Translations under genes and position numbers: made by a program | Assembly: GCA_948471095.1 (NCBI GenBank) | Contig: CAOKRG010000030.1 | Location: forward strand, 1-32,820 | Direction of reading: 5' to 3' | Length of the DNA stretch: 32,820 bases | DNA from: an uncultured Oscillospiraceae bacterium | GTDB lineage: Bacteria; Bacillota; Clostridia; Oscillospirales; Acutalibacteraceae | Shown here: piece by piece, positions 174 to 4,401 of the stretch | Position numbering within the stretch: the first letter of the stretch is position 1 | How the letters are laid out: every line of letters begins with the position of its first letter | The notes under the pieces: generated by a model | What the model saw: only the letters and a program-made list of their open reading frames with translations | Database searches by the model: none | What the model was told of the DNA's origin: nothing

Positions 174-336
174 AGAACCTGTATTCACAGGCGGAGGACG
201 CCGTATGGGCGGGGGTTTGGGGGCCCAGCTGCATTAAAAAATCTCGCAATGCGCCAGCATTCCCGCGATTTTTTTGCCTTGCTGGGCCCAAAAAGCCCTC
301 GCCCACCCGCCGTCCCCGCCTAGGGATACAGGTTCT
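174..336. repeat. Long imperfect inverted repeat with inner terminator hairpin
   Basis: The left arm (174-229, beginning AGAACCTGTATTCACAGG) and right arm (281-336) are imperfect reverse complements about 56 bp long. The loop contains a second hairpin at about 235-272 flanked by A and T runs on both sides, so it could terminate transcription in either direction. It would serve as the end of the nrdD-to-nrdG transcript. The right arm runs into the nrdG stop codon (335-337). The size and shape are MITE-like, but no transposase was seen. Confidence 0.6.
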
Positions 337-835
337 AAGACGCTTCCCACAACACGGCGCGGCCCGCCGCCAGGGATTTCTTCACATCGATCAGCCGCTG
401 GTTTTCACTGCCCCGAAAGCGCAGCTCCAGGTTGCGCTGGGCCTCCACATAGGGGCCGTCAATCAGCAGGTCGGTCTCGGCCAAAAGGTCCTGGACCCCG
501 GGGTCCTCCATGGCCAGCAGCTCTTCGTACACATAGCCGGTGTAGACGGCCACGTCCTTTCCGACCCCGTGGACCAGCTTGGCCAGCTCCGCCAGAGGGG
601 CCGCCTGGCAGAAGGGCTCGCCGCCGCTGAGGGTGACGCCCTTGAGCAGCGGGTCCTGCCGGAACTGGGCAAAGAGCTCCTCGATCTTCCGGACCTCGCC
701 CCCTTCGAAGGGGTGGGTCTGGGGGTTGTGGCAGCCTGGACAGCCGTGGGGGCAGCCCTGCACGAACACCGCGAACCGGATGCCCGGCCCGTCCACAATG
801 GACTCGGGGACCACCCCAGCCACACGCAGCTCCAC
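335..835 (-). CDS. nrdG: Anaerobic ribonucleoside-triphosphate reductase activating protein (radical SAM)
   Basis: NrdG is the radical SAM activase that uses a 4Fe-4S cluster and S-adenosylmethionine to put the glycyl radical on class III ribonucleotide reductase. The sequence shows the cluster motif CX3CX2C (CPHGCPGC) after a VDGPGIRFAVFVQG stretch, then the SGGEPF motif and a TDLLIDGPYV segment, all typical of NrdG. I chose the GTG at 835, which gives 166 residues starting MELRVAG, the usual family length; it lies 2 bp beyond the surE stop. An ATG at 913 is also in frame but would overlap surE by 76 bp and add an unusual Pro/Ala-rich leader. No strong ribosome site is seen, which fits coupling to surE. 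It is the last gene of the reductase cluster. Confidence 0.93.
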   Translation of the reverse strand: MELRVAGVVPESIVDGPGIRFAVFVQGCPHGCPGCHNPQTHPFEGGEVRKIEELFAQFRQDPLLKGVTLSGGEPFCQAAPLAELAKLVHGVGKDVAVYTGYVYEELLAMEDPGVQDLLAETDLLIDGPYVEAQRNLELRFRGSENQRLIDVKKSLAAGRAVLWEAS

Positions 836-837
836 GG

Positions 838-1581
838 CTACTGCCAGGGGATCTGCCTGCGGCCCTCCAGCGGCTGTTCCAGCTGGTAGTTCAGGGGCGT
901 CAGGGTGATCCATCCGTCGTTGAGGCTGTTCCAGTCGTCCGTGCTTCCCGGCGTGCGCTGGGCCGGACGGTTGGGGGGCGTGAACTTGACCCGGCCGTCC
1001 TGTCCCATATGCTCTTCATAGGGGCCCTGCCACCGGTTTCCCGCCCCTTGGCGGGCCCAGCGCAGGCCCTTGATCTTCTGAATGGGCAGCGCGGGGATGT
1101 TGATGTTCAGCACCTGGTCAAAGTCCCTTTCCAGGTCCAGCATGTCGAAGATGCAGAGGAAGGTCTCCACGGTCTGCTGGTCGTCCGCGTCAATGGGGGC
1201 GGAGAGGGAGATGGCCTTCACGCCCATCATGGCGGCTTCCAGGGCCGCGGCCACCGTGCCGGAATAGAGCAGGTCCAGGGCGGTGTTGTCCCCCTTGTTG
1301 GGGCCGGAGACGACCAGGTCTACCGGACCGGGGGCAAAATTCAGCAGGCCCAGCCGGGTGCAGTCGGCCGGGGTGCCGCTGACGGCCCAGGCCTCCACGC
1401 CGTGGGGGAAGTCCGCCCGGGCGGCATAGAGCGGCTCCCGCAGGGTGATGCCGTGGCCGATGGCGCTGCGGTTTCCGTCCGGCGCGGCCACGGTGACGGC
1501 ATGGCTGCGCACCAGGGCCCCGGAGAGGGCCCACAGCCCGGGGGACTGAATGCCGTCGTCGTTTACCAGAAGCAGGTTCAT
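838..1581 (-). CDS. surE: 5'/3'-nucleotidase SurE
   Basis: SurE is a metal-dependent nucleoside-monophosphate phosphatase (survival protein family). The 247 residues start with the metal-binding MNLLLVNDDGIQSPG motif. They also hold VSGTPADC and SGPNKGDN, the conserved Asn/Ser segments of the active site, and the length is normal for the family. The ATG at 1581 overlaps the TGA of the upstream radical-domain gene as ATGA, a classic sign of translational coupling. nrdG follows directly. Its place inside a ribonucleotide reductase cluster suggests a link to nucleotide-pool control, but that is inference. Confidence 0.95.
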   Translation of the reverse strand: MNLLLVNDDGIQSPGLWALSGALVRSHAVTVAAPDGNRSAIGHGITLREPLYAARADFPHGVEAWAVSGTPADCTRLGLLNFAPGPVDLVVSGPNKGDNTALDLLYSGTVAAALEAAMMGVKAISLSAPIDADDQQTVETFLCIFDMLDLERDFDQVLNINIPALPIQKIKGLRWARQGAGNRWQGPYEEHMGQDGRVKFTPPNRPAQRTPGSTDDWNSLNDGWITLTPLNYQLEQPLEGRRQIPWQ

Positions 1582-1772
1582 AGCTTGGCCTCGCTTCCCA
1601 GGGAATGCTTGACCCGGTCCCGCTCCTCGGCCCGCTTGGCGTTGTTCCAGCGGTCGATGGTGCCCACCAGGTACCCGGTGATGCGGCGGATGCGCTCGAA
1701 CTCCCGGCCCTCGCCCACGGTGATCTGATCGGTCCCGGTAATTTTAGCGTTCTTTTTGCTGGTGTTAGACAT
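1578..1772 (-). CDS. Detached glycyl-radical domain of class III ribonucleotide reductase (NrdD C-terminus)
   Basis: This 64-residue protein carries RRITGYLVGTIDRWNN (residues 29-44) followed by AKRAEERDRVKH (45-56). From memory, the C-terminal end of E. coli NrdD reads RRVCGYLG, then FNAGKQEEVKRRVKH, where the Gly of the GYL motif holds the radical. The match puts the radical on Gly33 here. The adjacent nrdD stops before this element, so the two proteins together make one complete enzyme. The first ~24 residues (KITGTDQITVGEG) are not part of usual NrdD. An AGGAGG site at 1781-1786 lies 8 bases upstream of the ATG, and the stop overlaps surE. Its function as the radical-bearing subunit is inferred from motif and position. 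Confidence 0.85.
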   Translation of the reverse strand: MSNTSKKNAKITGTDQITVGEGREFERIRRITGYLVGTIDRWNNAKRAEERDRVKHSLGSEAKL

Positions 1773-1853
1773 AATAGTTTCCTCCTAGGATATAAGTTTT
1801 TTATTGTGTATAATAGACCTTTTGCGAAAATAGATTTGTGTTGAGTCATAGAC

Positions 1854-1928
1854 GGCCTCCGGCGGCTTAGGGGCGCTGCCCCTAAGAACCCCGCCAGGTG
1901 CCTAACGCACCTGGACCGCGTATTCTGC
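1854..1928 (+). repeat. Two-hairpin intergenic repeat, copy 1 (short form)
   Basis: The anchor GGCCTCCGGCGGC is followed by hairpin 1 (1867-1885, TTAGGGGC/GCCCCTAA), hairpin 2 (1894-1914, CCAGGTGC/GCACCTGG with loop CTAAC) and the end box GACCGCGTATTCTGC. The same layout recurs at 15849-15948 (plus) and 13536-13607 (minus). It fills part of the gap between nrdD and the radical-domain gene. Confidence 0.75.
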
Positions 1929-2043
1929 CTACTATAGTTGGTAGCTTATTTAGTATGTAGTGAGTCTGCTGGGCCGACCTCACCCACAAAACCGAAAAAT
2001 GAGCACTCAGCCTCCTCCTTCCCCCTTCGTAACAACGTAAAAG

Positions 2044-2099
2044 TCTTTGAAGATTGTTAAGAAACTTTCTTCAGAAAGTTTCTTAACCCGCCGGAGGCA
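2044..2099 (-). repeat. Hairpin repeat directly after nrdD
   Basis: A perfect 15-bp inverted repeat (GTTAAGAAACTTTCT at 2056-2070 and its complement at 2073-2087) sits 16 bp past the nrdD stop. It is bounded by the GCCTCCGGCGG anchor on the nrdD side and by an AAAGACTTT box on the far side. A relative with the same anchor and box lies at 13733-13812 just after mreB. There is no U-tract right after the stem, so it may protect or process the 3' end rather than terminate. In the rest of this gap (1929-2043) nothing clear is seen. Confidence 0.6.
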
Positions 2100-2103
2100 A
2101 AAA

Positions 2104-4401
2104 TCAGGAGATGAGGTTCGTGTAATCGGGCACGTCGTGGTATTTTTTGCGCAGCTCCTCCAGTTTTTCCAGGGGGACCCCCTCGCCGGAGCGGCGGCCG
2201 CAGCGGGGGCAGGTTTCGCCGATGATGCCGTTATAGCCGCACACCGGGTCCCGGTCCACCGGGTGGTTCACCGAGCCGTAGCCCACGCCCGCCTCCTTCA
2301 TGCAGCGGATGACGCTTTCAAAGGCGTCGATGTTTTTGCAGATGTCCCCGTCCAGCTCCACATAGCTGATGTGCCCGGCGTTGGTCAGGGCGTGGAAGGG
2401 GGCCTCCTTCTGGATTTTCTCAAAGGCGCTGATGGGGTAATAGACCGGCACATGGAAGGAGTTGGTATAGTATTCCCGGTCGGTGACGCCCTCGATGATC
2501 CCGAATTTTTTCTTGTCAATGCGGGTGAAGGTGCCAGAAAGCCCCTCGCCCGGGGTGGCCAGCAAGGTAAAGTTGAGGCCGTACTCCTTGGAGAGCTCAT
2601 CCATGCGCTTTCGCATATAGGTGATGATCTCCAGGCCCAGCTTGTAACTCTCCTGGCTCTCCCCGTGGTGCTTGCCGGTCAGGGCCTTCAGGGTCTCCGC
2701 CAGGCCGATGAACCCAACGGACAGGGTGCCGTGCTTCAAGACCTCGGCCACGGAGTCGTTCCGGTCCAGCTTCTCCGAGTCGATCCATACCCCCTGGCCC
2801 ATGAGGAAGGGATAGTTATAGGCCTTTTTGCTGCTCTGTATCTTAAAGCGGTGCATAAGCTGCTCCACGCACAGGTCGATGCGCTCGTCCAGCAGCTGGT
2901 AGAATTTCTTGATATCCCCCTTTGCCTCTATGCCGATGCGGGGCAGGTTCACCGAGGTGAAGCTCAGGTTGCCCCGGCCGCAGGTGGTCTCGTGGGCCTT
3001 GTCGTGGACGTTGCCCATCACCCGGGTGCGGCAGCCCATATAGGCCACTTCGGTGTCGTAGTCCCCGGCCTTGTAATATTGCAGGTTGAAGGGCGCGTCC
3101 AAAAAGCTGAAATTGGGGAACAGCCGCTTGGCGGAAACCCGCATGGCCAGCTTGAACAGGTCGTAATTGGGGTCGCCCTCGTTATAGTTGACCCCCTCCT
3201 TCACCTTGAAGATCTGCACCGGGAAAATGGGGGTCTCGCCGTCGCCCAGGCCGGCCTCGGTGGCCAGCAGCAGGTTGCGGATGACCATGCGGCCCTGCTC
3301 GCTGGTGTCCGTGCCGTAGTTGAGGGAGGAGAAGGGCACCTGGGCCCCGGCCCGGGAGTTCATGGTGTTCAGGTTGTGCACCAGGGCCTCCATGGCCTGA
3401 TAGGTGGCCTTGTCGGTCTCCCGCCAGGCGGTCTCTTTGGCGTAGGCGGCGGCGTCGCTGGCCTCCTCCCAGGTCACCTCCTGGAAGCCGCTCTCCCGCT
3501 GGTGCCGGGGCAGGAACTCCGCGAAGCGCTCGTTATAGGCGTCCACATTCTTCATGGTCACCTTGCTGTGCAGGGCCACCTTCGCCGCCTGGACCATGGC
3601 CTCGGCCTGGCCGTGGGGCATCAGCTTCATCAGCTGGAAGAACTGGGTGAGGGCCTTGAAGTATTCCTTCTGGTAGGTTTTGTCCACGCCCTCGGCCATG
3701 GCGTAGTCGAAGATGGGCACGCTCTGGCCCCCGTGCATCTCGTTCTGGTTGGCCTGAATGGCGATGCAGGCCAGGGCCGCGTAAGACCGGATATCCTGGG
3801 GCTCCCGCAGGTAGCCGTGGCCGGTGGAAAAGCCGTTGCGGAACAGCCTGATCAGGTCGATCTGGCAGCAGGTTTCCGTCAGGGTGTAAAAATCCTTGTC
3901 GTGGATGTGGATGTCGCCCTCCGCGTCCGCCTTGGCCAGGTGGGGCGGAATGACGTACTTGTCGTAAAAGCTCTTGGCGCCCTCGGAGCCGTACTTGAGC
4001 ATGGTGCCCATGGCGGTGTCCGCGTTGATGTTGGCATTCTCCCGCTTTAGGTCCACGTCCTCGGCCGGGACGAAGGTGAGGGCGGAGTAGATTTTCACCA
4101 GCTCGTCGTCCATCTCCCGCAGCCGCTGGTGCTGGGCCCGGTAAAGGATGTAGGCCTTGGCGGTTTTGGCATAGTCGGCGGCAATGAGCTTTTCCTCCAC
4201 GATATCTTGGGTCTGCTCCACCGTGGGGGTGGACTTCATCTGTTCCAGCTCGTCCACCACCTGCCGGGTCAGCCGGTCCAGGTCGTCCTCGCTGAACCGC
4301 TCGGTGGCAATGCGGACATTGGCCTTCAAGATGGCGTTGCGGATCTTAATGGGGTCGAACTTCACTCGTTTTCCGTTGCGTTTGATGATACTTTTTGGCA
4401 T
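2104..4401 (-). CDS. nrdD: Anaerobic ribonucleoside-triphosphate reductase, main subunit lacking the glycyl-radical loop
   Basis: Class III reductase reduces NTPs to dNTPs without oxygen. The protein has 765 residues. It starts with an ATP-cone domain (about 1-95, with IIKRNGKRVKFDPIKIRNAI), followed by the catalytic barrel with CCQIDL, NEMHGGQSVP and the GCRTRVMGN segment. Near the C-terminus are DPVCGYNG and CPRCG, the zinc-site region, but only three of the four usual cysteines are seen. The protein then ends with a YHDVPDYTNLIS tail, where NrdD normally continues into the glycyl-radical GYL loop; that loop is absent and is found in the separate gene at 1578-1772. GAGAGGAG lies about 14 bases before the ATG. 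The gene is first in the cluster that ends with nrdG and is probably under NrdR control. Confidence 0.95.
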   Translation of the reverse strand: MPKSIIKRNGKRVKFDPIKIRNAILKANVRIATERFSEDDLDRLTRQVVDELEQMKSTPTVEQTQDIVEEKLIAADYAKTAKAYILYRAQHQRLREMDDELVKIYSALTFVPAEDVDLKRENANINADTAMGTMLKYGSEGAKSFYDKYVIPPHLAKADAEGDIHIHDKDFYTLTETCCQIDLIRLFRNGFSTGHGYLREPQDIRSYAALACIAIQANQNEMHGGQSVPIFDYAMAEGVDKTYQKEYFKALTQFFQLMKLMPHGQAEAMVQAAKVALHSKVTMKNVDAYNERFAEFLPRHQRESGFQEVTWEEASDAAAYAKETAWRETDKATYQAMEALVHNLNTMNSRAGAQVPFSSLNYGTDTSEQGRMVIRNLLLATEAGLGDGETPIFPVQIFKVKEGVNYNEGDPNYDLFKLAMRVSAKRLFPNFSFLDAPFNLQYYKAGDYDTEVAYMGCRTRVMGNVHDKAHETTCGRGNLSFTSVNLPRIGIEAKGDIKKFYQLLDERIDLCVEQLMHRFKIQSSKKAYNYPFLMGQGVWIDSEKLDRNDSVAEVLKHGTLSVGFIGLAETLKALTGKHHGESQESYKLGLEIITYMRKRMDELSKEYGLNFTLLATPGEGLSGTFTRIDKKKFGIIEGVTDREYYTNSFHVPVYYPISAFEKIQKEAPFHALTNAGHISYVELDGDICKNIDAFESVIRCMKEAGVGYGSVNHPVDRDPVCGYNGIIGETCPRCGRRSGEGVPLEKLEELRKKYHDVPDYTNLIS

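Follow-up and report, generated by a model that had tools for sequence, protein, structure and literature searches.

The glycyl-radical segment of NrdD is encoded by a separate gene

We analysed a stretch of 32,820 nt (the window; contig CAOKRG010000030.1 of assembly GCA_948471095.1, forward-strand numbering) from an uncultured Oscillospiraceae bacterium of the Acutalibacteraceae, in which nrdD, the gene of a class III ribonucleotide reductase, is followed by a small gene for a free glycyl-radical domain. We use GRD as the name for such a free glycyl-radical subunit or domain, encoded as a separate small protein. The order on the minus strand is nrdD, a gap, the GRD gene, surE and nrdG, the last three forming an operon-like run (Table 1). 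The window NrdD matches PF13597 with 637 bits, the ATP-cone family PF03477 with 79 bits and TIGR02487 with 580 bits (cut-off 326). As an earlier reading of the window from its sequence alone had claimed, this NrdD has no GYL loop, and the loop is carried by a separate protein of 64 residues: the large chain ends after its zinc knuckle, both frames were recovered, and their Pfam matches are complementary. Of the 562 positions of Pfam NRDD (PF13597), 1-530 fall on the 765-aa NrdD and 531-562 on the 64-aa protein, the latter scoring 33.6 bits (curated cut-off 26.2).

Table 1 Features of the nrdD-GRD locus in the window
Feature	Position	Strand	Remarks
nrdD	2104-4401	-	765 aa; ATP-cone, class III catalytic barrel and zinc knuckle, without glycyl-radical loop
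Cys457 codon, in MGCRTRV	3031-3033	-	Expected finger-loop (thiyl radical) cysteine; alignment to 8p23
Zinc-knuckle segment C721-C734 (CGYNGIIGETCPRC)	2200-2241	-	Last part in common with normal NrdD
NrdD C-terminal stretch from C731, 35 residues (GEGVPLEKLEELRKKYHDVPDY)	2107-2211	-	Alike across the genus
Intergenic gap between nrdD and GRD gene, 331 nt	1773-2103	.	More than half consists of two dispersed repeats
AGGAGG ribosome-binding site of GRD gene	1781-1786	-	Precedes ATG at 1772-1770
GRD gene, 64 aa	1578-1772	-	Free glycyl-radical subunit
Gly33 codon, in RRITGYL	1674-1676	-	Predicted radical glycine; alignment
surE	838-1581	-	Its ATG overlaps the GRD gene stop (ATGA)
nrdG	335-913	-	Radical S-adenosylmethionine activase of class III reductase; TIGR02491, 139.9 bits (cut-off 126.1)

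In alignments to 8p23, the solved NrdD of Prevotella copri, the window NrdD reaches chain residue 705 and a profile of the small proteins covers residues 707-738, which places the split point after the zinc knuckle and ahead of the radical strand. The small protein can therefore be aligned to NrdD C-termini, as the sequence-only reading had expected. The MGCRTRV and CGY...CPRCG motifs of the window NrdD also align with 8p23, and three of the four knuckle cysteines are retained, a pattern also seen in some full-length relatives. Cys457 is the expected thiyl radical cysteine of the NrdD family. The radical glycine of the P. copri enzyme is given as Gly711 in the available part of PMC11226230, and since the alignment pairs it with Gly33 of GRD, Gly33 is its predicted counterpart.

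Homology of GRD to NrdD begins at about residue 19-25, and just before it lies a G-x-G motif that is common to nearly all short free domains examined. Because this conserved motif precedes the homology start, the variable new N-terminus amounts to only about 18 residues; a new N-terminal stretch thus exists as previously suggested, but it is shorter than the proposed 24 or so. The GRD gene does have an AGGAGG site of its own ahead of its ATG. The tail of the window NrdD occupies the place of FERIRRITGYL in normal NrdD, with colinearity judged from spacing. The likeness of such tails to a decayed radical strand is weak: 81 of the 133 split tails show a colinear pattern, and in 39 no such pattern was found.

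The split is conserved across the genus and beyond

A search of 29 genomes of the genus, the window's own among them, found NrdD in 28, each with an NRDD match ending at position 530 or 531, and the same 28 genomes all contain a separate match to the rest of NRDD. A sequencing or frame error, which might have undone the claim, is ruled out by the split in all 28. The two genes are adjacent and on the same strand in 27 genomes, window included (gap 22-799 nt; GRD 52-66 aa), and in G006 they lie on different contigs with NrdD close to a contig end. In the family beyond the genus, at least 23 genomes among the matches listed have an NrdD match stopping before the loop; in 22 of them GRD lies 15-411 nt downstream of NrdD, and in the remaining one, G128, on a different contig. 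The activase gene nrdG follows within 1.8 kb downstream in 26 of 27 genus loci (only 38 nt are left in the 27th, L054) and in 18 of 22 family loci. Apparent fusions in G011 and G020, with frames of 891 and 865 codons, were rejected because of real stops in the sequence. Extra GRD copies away from nrdD occur in the genus genomes G002, G003, G007 and G011.

The window NrdD is about 83-92% identical to NrdDs across the genus. Strong purifying selection acts on the GRD core, whose median ratio of nonsynonymous to synonymous divergence (dN/dS) is 0.054 in 27 genus sequences (312 of 351 pairs, dS 0.1-1.5). Both values speak against the idea that the split NrdD is dying while deoxynucleoside triphosphates (dNTPs) come from elsewhere, either by uptake or from a reductase missed in a genome that is a metagenome-assembled genome (MAG) of 86.6% completeness. 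The catalytic domain of class I/II reductases (PF02867) was likewise detected in 0 of 29 genus genomes, the one-contig genome G003 included, and we regard a dying gene as very improbable. No second full-length nrdD, the finding that might have relieved the split gene of its function, turned up: a profile search of the window's genome, 86.6% complete, gave no other NRDD match.

The adjacency of the two genes on the same strand in all 49 pairs examined could also mean that the two pieces become one chain through an intron, a programmed frameshift or ribosomal bypass. In comparisons with six relatives, identity in the gap equals that of shuffled sequence or differs from it by at most 0.03, and slightly exceeds it in two of them (0.41 against 0.38 in L043 and 0.46 against 0.44 in L048; standard deviation 0.01), whereas identity to the same relatives stays at 0.74-0.88 at the nrdD end and in the GRD gene. 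These slight excesses are set against gaps that range from 15 to 799 nt and, in the window, consist largely of dispersed repeats, and against small genes that have an ATG and a Shine-Dalgarno-like site of at least 4 bases in 49 of 49 adjacent pairs, their starts having been chosen for that site. Rfam matched only two tRNAs across the window, at 32.4-32.7 kb, and nothing in the gap; in several genomes, moreover, GRD lies on another contig amid other genes. Intron, intein and recoding were rejected on the gap analysis, the Rfam result and the unlinked genes, and a single chain made in any of these ways is scarcely credible to us. The gap repeats of the window, at about 1854-1934 and at 1996-2103, are dispersed and intergenic (a search with the gap returns 70 matches from its own genome, the gap itself included), and the second holds a perfect 15-bp inverted repeat (2056-2070 / 2073-2087).

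Loop-less NrdD and free GRD occur together even when unlinked

We further compared two samples drawn without regard to GRD, one from the order (74 genomes, 71 with an NRDD match) and one from the phylum (81 genomes, 69 with a match). In the order sample, free GRD was present in 18/18 genomes with a loop-less NrdD, own genome included, against 5/53 others (Fisher p 1e-12, this and the following p values ignoring shared ancestry). The contrast persisted when the own genome and six fragmentary genomes were removed (17/17 against 4/47, p 4e-12), and the phylum sample without the own genome gave 5/5 against 3/63 (p 5e-6), one of the 63, G512, having an NRDD match under the cut-off. The genome search proposed at the outset thus found the small gene with each loop-less NrdD in both samples. 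The GRD of G483 reads RVRRVTGYF and that of G548 SRVVGYL, which makes them more divergent members.

In five genomes of 99-100% completeness (G128, G228, G282, G300 and G503), the loop-less NrdD and GRD lie on different contigs, and neither another NRDD match nor any PF02867 match was found in them. The genes are unlinked in G537 and G283 too, but other reductases are present there. Because GRD lies at another locus, joining in cis is ruled out for these genomes. Possible remnants of FERIRRITGYL end the NrdD of G128 (SERIKRLI), G300 (HERIKRIISESCSCND), G282 (ERVERIKL), G283 (SERICRIRPEKKGDL) and G537 (FERIHRITE), and G263, a congener of G228, G282 and G300, has both an intact loop (FERIRRITGYLVGT) and a free GRD. 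By sequence, the unlinked cases look like a spare part that has turned into the only part.

In 24 of the 28 genus genomes, several of the 24 being incomplete, no reductase other than the split pair was found; outside the genus, 17 of the 25 genomes with a loop-less NrdD likewise had no PF02867 match. The pair is likely to be essential in the genus. It could instead be argued that the free domain merely repairs NrdD cut by oxygen, as GrcA/YfiD does for pyruvate formate-lyase (PFL), and is otherwise dispensable. Genomes with an intact NrdD plus a free GRD fit this idea: they include G202, G252 and G291 (genus g158, among those listed), G293, G182, G203, G371, G048, G263 and G222, as well as G384, whose free GRD gene comes directly after nrdD. 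However, the partner NrdD is already loop-less in the window and in each of the 28 genus genomes with an NrdD, and the genus lacks any detected class I/II reductase (0/29). Repair as the sole function is therefore unlikely in our view.

Taxonomic spread and two kinds of free domain

The best 80 loci of the named genome collection, picked by similarity to GRD, comprise 61 split pairs (one of which, L123, rests on a 33-residue NrdD match), 12 full-length NrdDs, 5 solo GRDs and 2 undecided cases. By record titles, many of them of MAGs, the split pairs belong to Clostridia, Negativicutes (Anaerovibrio slackiae, Megamonas and Schwartzia), Bacilli/Erysipelotrichia and Desulfovibrionia. Scatolibacter rhodanostii and Massiliimalia timonensis are examples of split species that have been cultured. 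An IQ-TREE maximum-likelihood tree of the NrdD core with 100 rows (28 full, 72 split) needs 11 state changes, at least 8 of them imposed by starred branches, the direction not being given by the tree; this is the tree quoted here, a FastTree of 160 rows having one mislabelled row (L039) and long branches. The split or full state has thus changed repeatedly. Since the rows were partly gathered by similarity to GRD, tree and locus counts are not frequencies.

Among the loci read, each of the 166 distinct free GRDs contains RR[IV]TGYL, the same motif that was used in finding them. Of 147 distinct short free GRDs, 146 have G-x-G/N immediately ahead of FERIRR, as against 5 of 42 full-length NrdDs, some bias being possible as the GRD search profile itself contains this motif. 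Long free GRDs (12 sequences) share a conserved domain of some 50 residues at the N-terminus; judged by eye it is beta-alpha-beta-beta, and it might serve to target NrdD or NrdG. They accompany intact NrdD (G384, G202, G252, G291 and others) as well as Negativicutes split pairs. Loci of the long type are L261-L264, L268-L272, L278-L280, L304, L318 and L320.

Two further loci were noted. At L275 (G246), two tandem short GRD genes (2920-3075 and 3344-3556) lie behind one loop-less nrdD. At L321 (G548), the divergent SRVVGYL radical domain is encoded on the minus strand at about 1273-1374; the loop-less NrdD upstream of it is divergent too, and the pair may be an independent split in another NrdD subfamily.

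A probable two-protein class III reductase

The alignments, the conservation of the split and the co-occurrence of the two genes support the earlier proposal of a two-protein NrdD with its radical loop on a separate subunit. NrdD and GRD very probably act together as one class III reductase in which the radical resides on a detachable subunit, and we infer that the two form a complex, transfer the radical to the NrdD cysteine and reduce nucleoside triphosphates (NTPs). In such an enzyme, the large NrdD would supply the ATP-cone, the catalytic barrel with its cysteine and the zinc knuckle, and a GRD of about 52-66 residues would dock non-covalently at the position of the C-terminal strand and loop of normal NrdD. 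NrdG would take a hydrogen from Gly33 of GRD, leaving the radical there, which would then move to the finger-loop Cys457 for reduction of the NTP. From the finger-loop motif, the reductant would be expected to be formate. Such motifs are discussed in the accessible portion of PMC9669993. If oxygen cuts the radical site, the cell could replace the part of about 7 kDa and retain the large chain; such replacement of damaged GRD after oxygen exposure, which the sequence-only reading had also suggested, is plausible by analogy with YfiD.

Structure prediction with AlphaFold2 was performed on L133, a natural read-through that has NrdD and GRD in one frame and served as one chain. With full-length NrdDs among its rows, the alignment gave a model that superposes on T4 NrdD (1h7b) with a root-mean-square deviation of 2.3 over 524 residues. 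The range 124-809 gives the first and last aligned residues only, and the radical glycine Gly800 is within that span. In one alignment, A2, some NrdD tails were set against GRD. The docking is not independent evidence because its pairing is borrowed from full-length proteins, and we take the docked model as a sign of compatibility, not as proof.

Several observations weigh against a two-protein enzyme or limit its reach. From an alignment of split proteins only, the GRD of L133 was undocked and disordered (pLDDT of the block about 25-36), and among the structure alignments listed for that model none reached Gly800; docking occurred only with full-length NrdDs in the alignment, the GRD block then having a pLDDT of 33-60. 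The window genome is a MAG of 86.6% completeness. A second, divergent full-length NrdD is present in 3 of 28 genus genomes (G008, G011 and G028), and G019 has one further partial NRDD match. Outside the genus, 8 of the 25 genomes with a loop-less NrdD do match PF02867 (three weakly and only in part), and the split enzyme is therefore not the sole possible reductase in these eight. The shared ancestry that the co-occurrence p values ignore counts here as well, and in the phylum sample the GRDs of G483 and G522 score 21.9 bits, below the Pfam cut-off of 26.2, with the match of G507 likewise under it.

As to origin, spare-part-like arrangements with an intact NrdD and a free GRD in one genome do exist, and the two-protein reductase likely arose via this state, with the free GRD serving first as a spare part and the built-in loop decaying later. 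Whether the split brought any benefit is a separate matter. A free GRD may simply have made loss of the loop tolerable and then hard to reverse, as in constructive neutral evolution; this reading addresses why the split arose and can hold alongside joint action of NrdD and GRD. The loop remnants in lineages with a free GRD and the at least 8 state changes forced by the starred branches are in line with it, while the short distance to nrdG and the high degree of conservation agree with selection acting on the pair, though both views predict that. We consider a split without benefit an appreciable possibility, yet one that falls clearly short of being the probable answer.

Relation to known systems

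The window NrdD resembles characterized class III NrdDs (P. copri, 8p23 series; T4, 1h78/1hk8; T. maritima, 4coi) in its ATP-cone and barrel, MGCR finger-loop cysteine, zinc-knuckle segment and NrdG partner, and differs from them in that the glycyl-radical strand and loop are on a separate protein. To our knowledge, class III reductases have been described as single-chain glycyl-radical enzymes. In class I reductases the radical is also stored on a second protein, the separate beta subunit NrdB, but this is a large ferritin-like metalloprotein, whereas GRD is a piece of 52-66 residues from the catalytic chain's own family. Closer in form are GrcA/YfiD and the phage T4 protein Y06I: these, like GRD, are small free proteins that copy a C-terminal radical segment, with bacterial and phage forms in both cases, and GrcA/YfiD, again like GRD, is a free-standing radical domain with a larger partner enzyme. 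GRD, however, belongs to the NrdD family and GrcA/YfiD to the PFL family, and the window GRD is the only radical segment rather than a backup. Indeed, the PFL-type Gly_radical family PF01228 was not found in the window GRD, in which only PF13597 matched (E up to 0.1). The split class II reductase NrdJa/NrdJb, as described in the accessible portion of PMC9669993, is another two-chain ribonucleotide reductase, from which the window's enzyme differs in that its second chain carries the radical site itself.

GrcA/YfiD and Y06I are named as PFL spare parts in the available sections of PMC8683613, where spare-part proteins are validated only for PFL and their existence for other glycyl-radical enzymes is posed as a question; the free GRDs now provide natural candidates for NrdD. 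The sequence-only reading knew of no description of such an NrdD, and none was found in the open-access literature searched, which lacks most subscription papers. No split NrdD is described in the accessible text of PMC8683613, PMC9669993, PMC9531940, PMC11226230, PMC2795772, PMC12288474 or PMC11194802. On the evidence of the genomes compared, the split NrdD is real and widespread and represents a known enzyme in a new architecture. The radical segment of what would be an essential enzyme is a separate protein in many gut and rumen anaerobes, and the gene labelled nrdD in these genomes comes without the catalytic glycine. These findings raise the questions of whether a glycyl radical is handed over in trans in NrdD, whether a damaged radical part can be exchanged and whether phages supply a radical subunit for dNTP synthesis, all of which are directly testable because unlinked and phage-borne copies exist.

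Phage and plasmid copies of GRD

A scan of viral sequences returned 349 stretches encoding a relative. The best 80 of the 349 were read and contain 59 solo GRDs (no NrdD in the upstream sequence fetched), 5 split pairs, 11 full-length NrdDs and 5 cases with too little sequence, all on contigs that are predicted to be viral and may be prophages or fragments. Searching 43 viral records whole gave 41 without another NRDD match and 2 with a loop-less NrdD; the whole record was searched for 41 of the 59 solo loci, and 40 of these 41 had no other NRDD match. In the loci examined, the neighbours of viral GRD genes include anti-repressor, endolysin, tail-fibre and DNA methyltransferase genes.

GRD may be viewed as a mobile, exchangeable cofactor that is carried by phages and plasmids and acts in trans for the host NrdD, as a spare part or as the sole radical source, which would have enabled many independent losses of the loop. 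We put this forward tentatively, holding its chances to be slightly under even. If it is true, hosts and phages share the radical site of an essential enzyme.

Individual records show further arrangements. The solo GRD genes of L070 and L274 adjoin a phage-type DNA methyltransferase gene. Eggerthella phage EL753P1 (L315, OP172808.1) has a loop-less nrdD with a GRD-like frame downstream at about 3870-4085, which in that record is interrupted by a stop directly ahead of the radical loop. L316 (OY725842.1), an unannotated record of a 90.5-kb circular plasmid of Subdoligranulum variabile, carries a short free GRD gene at 3983-4147.

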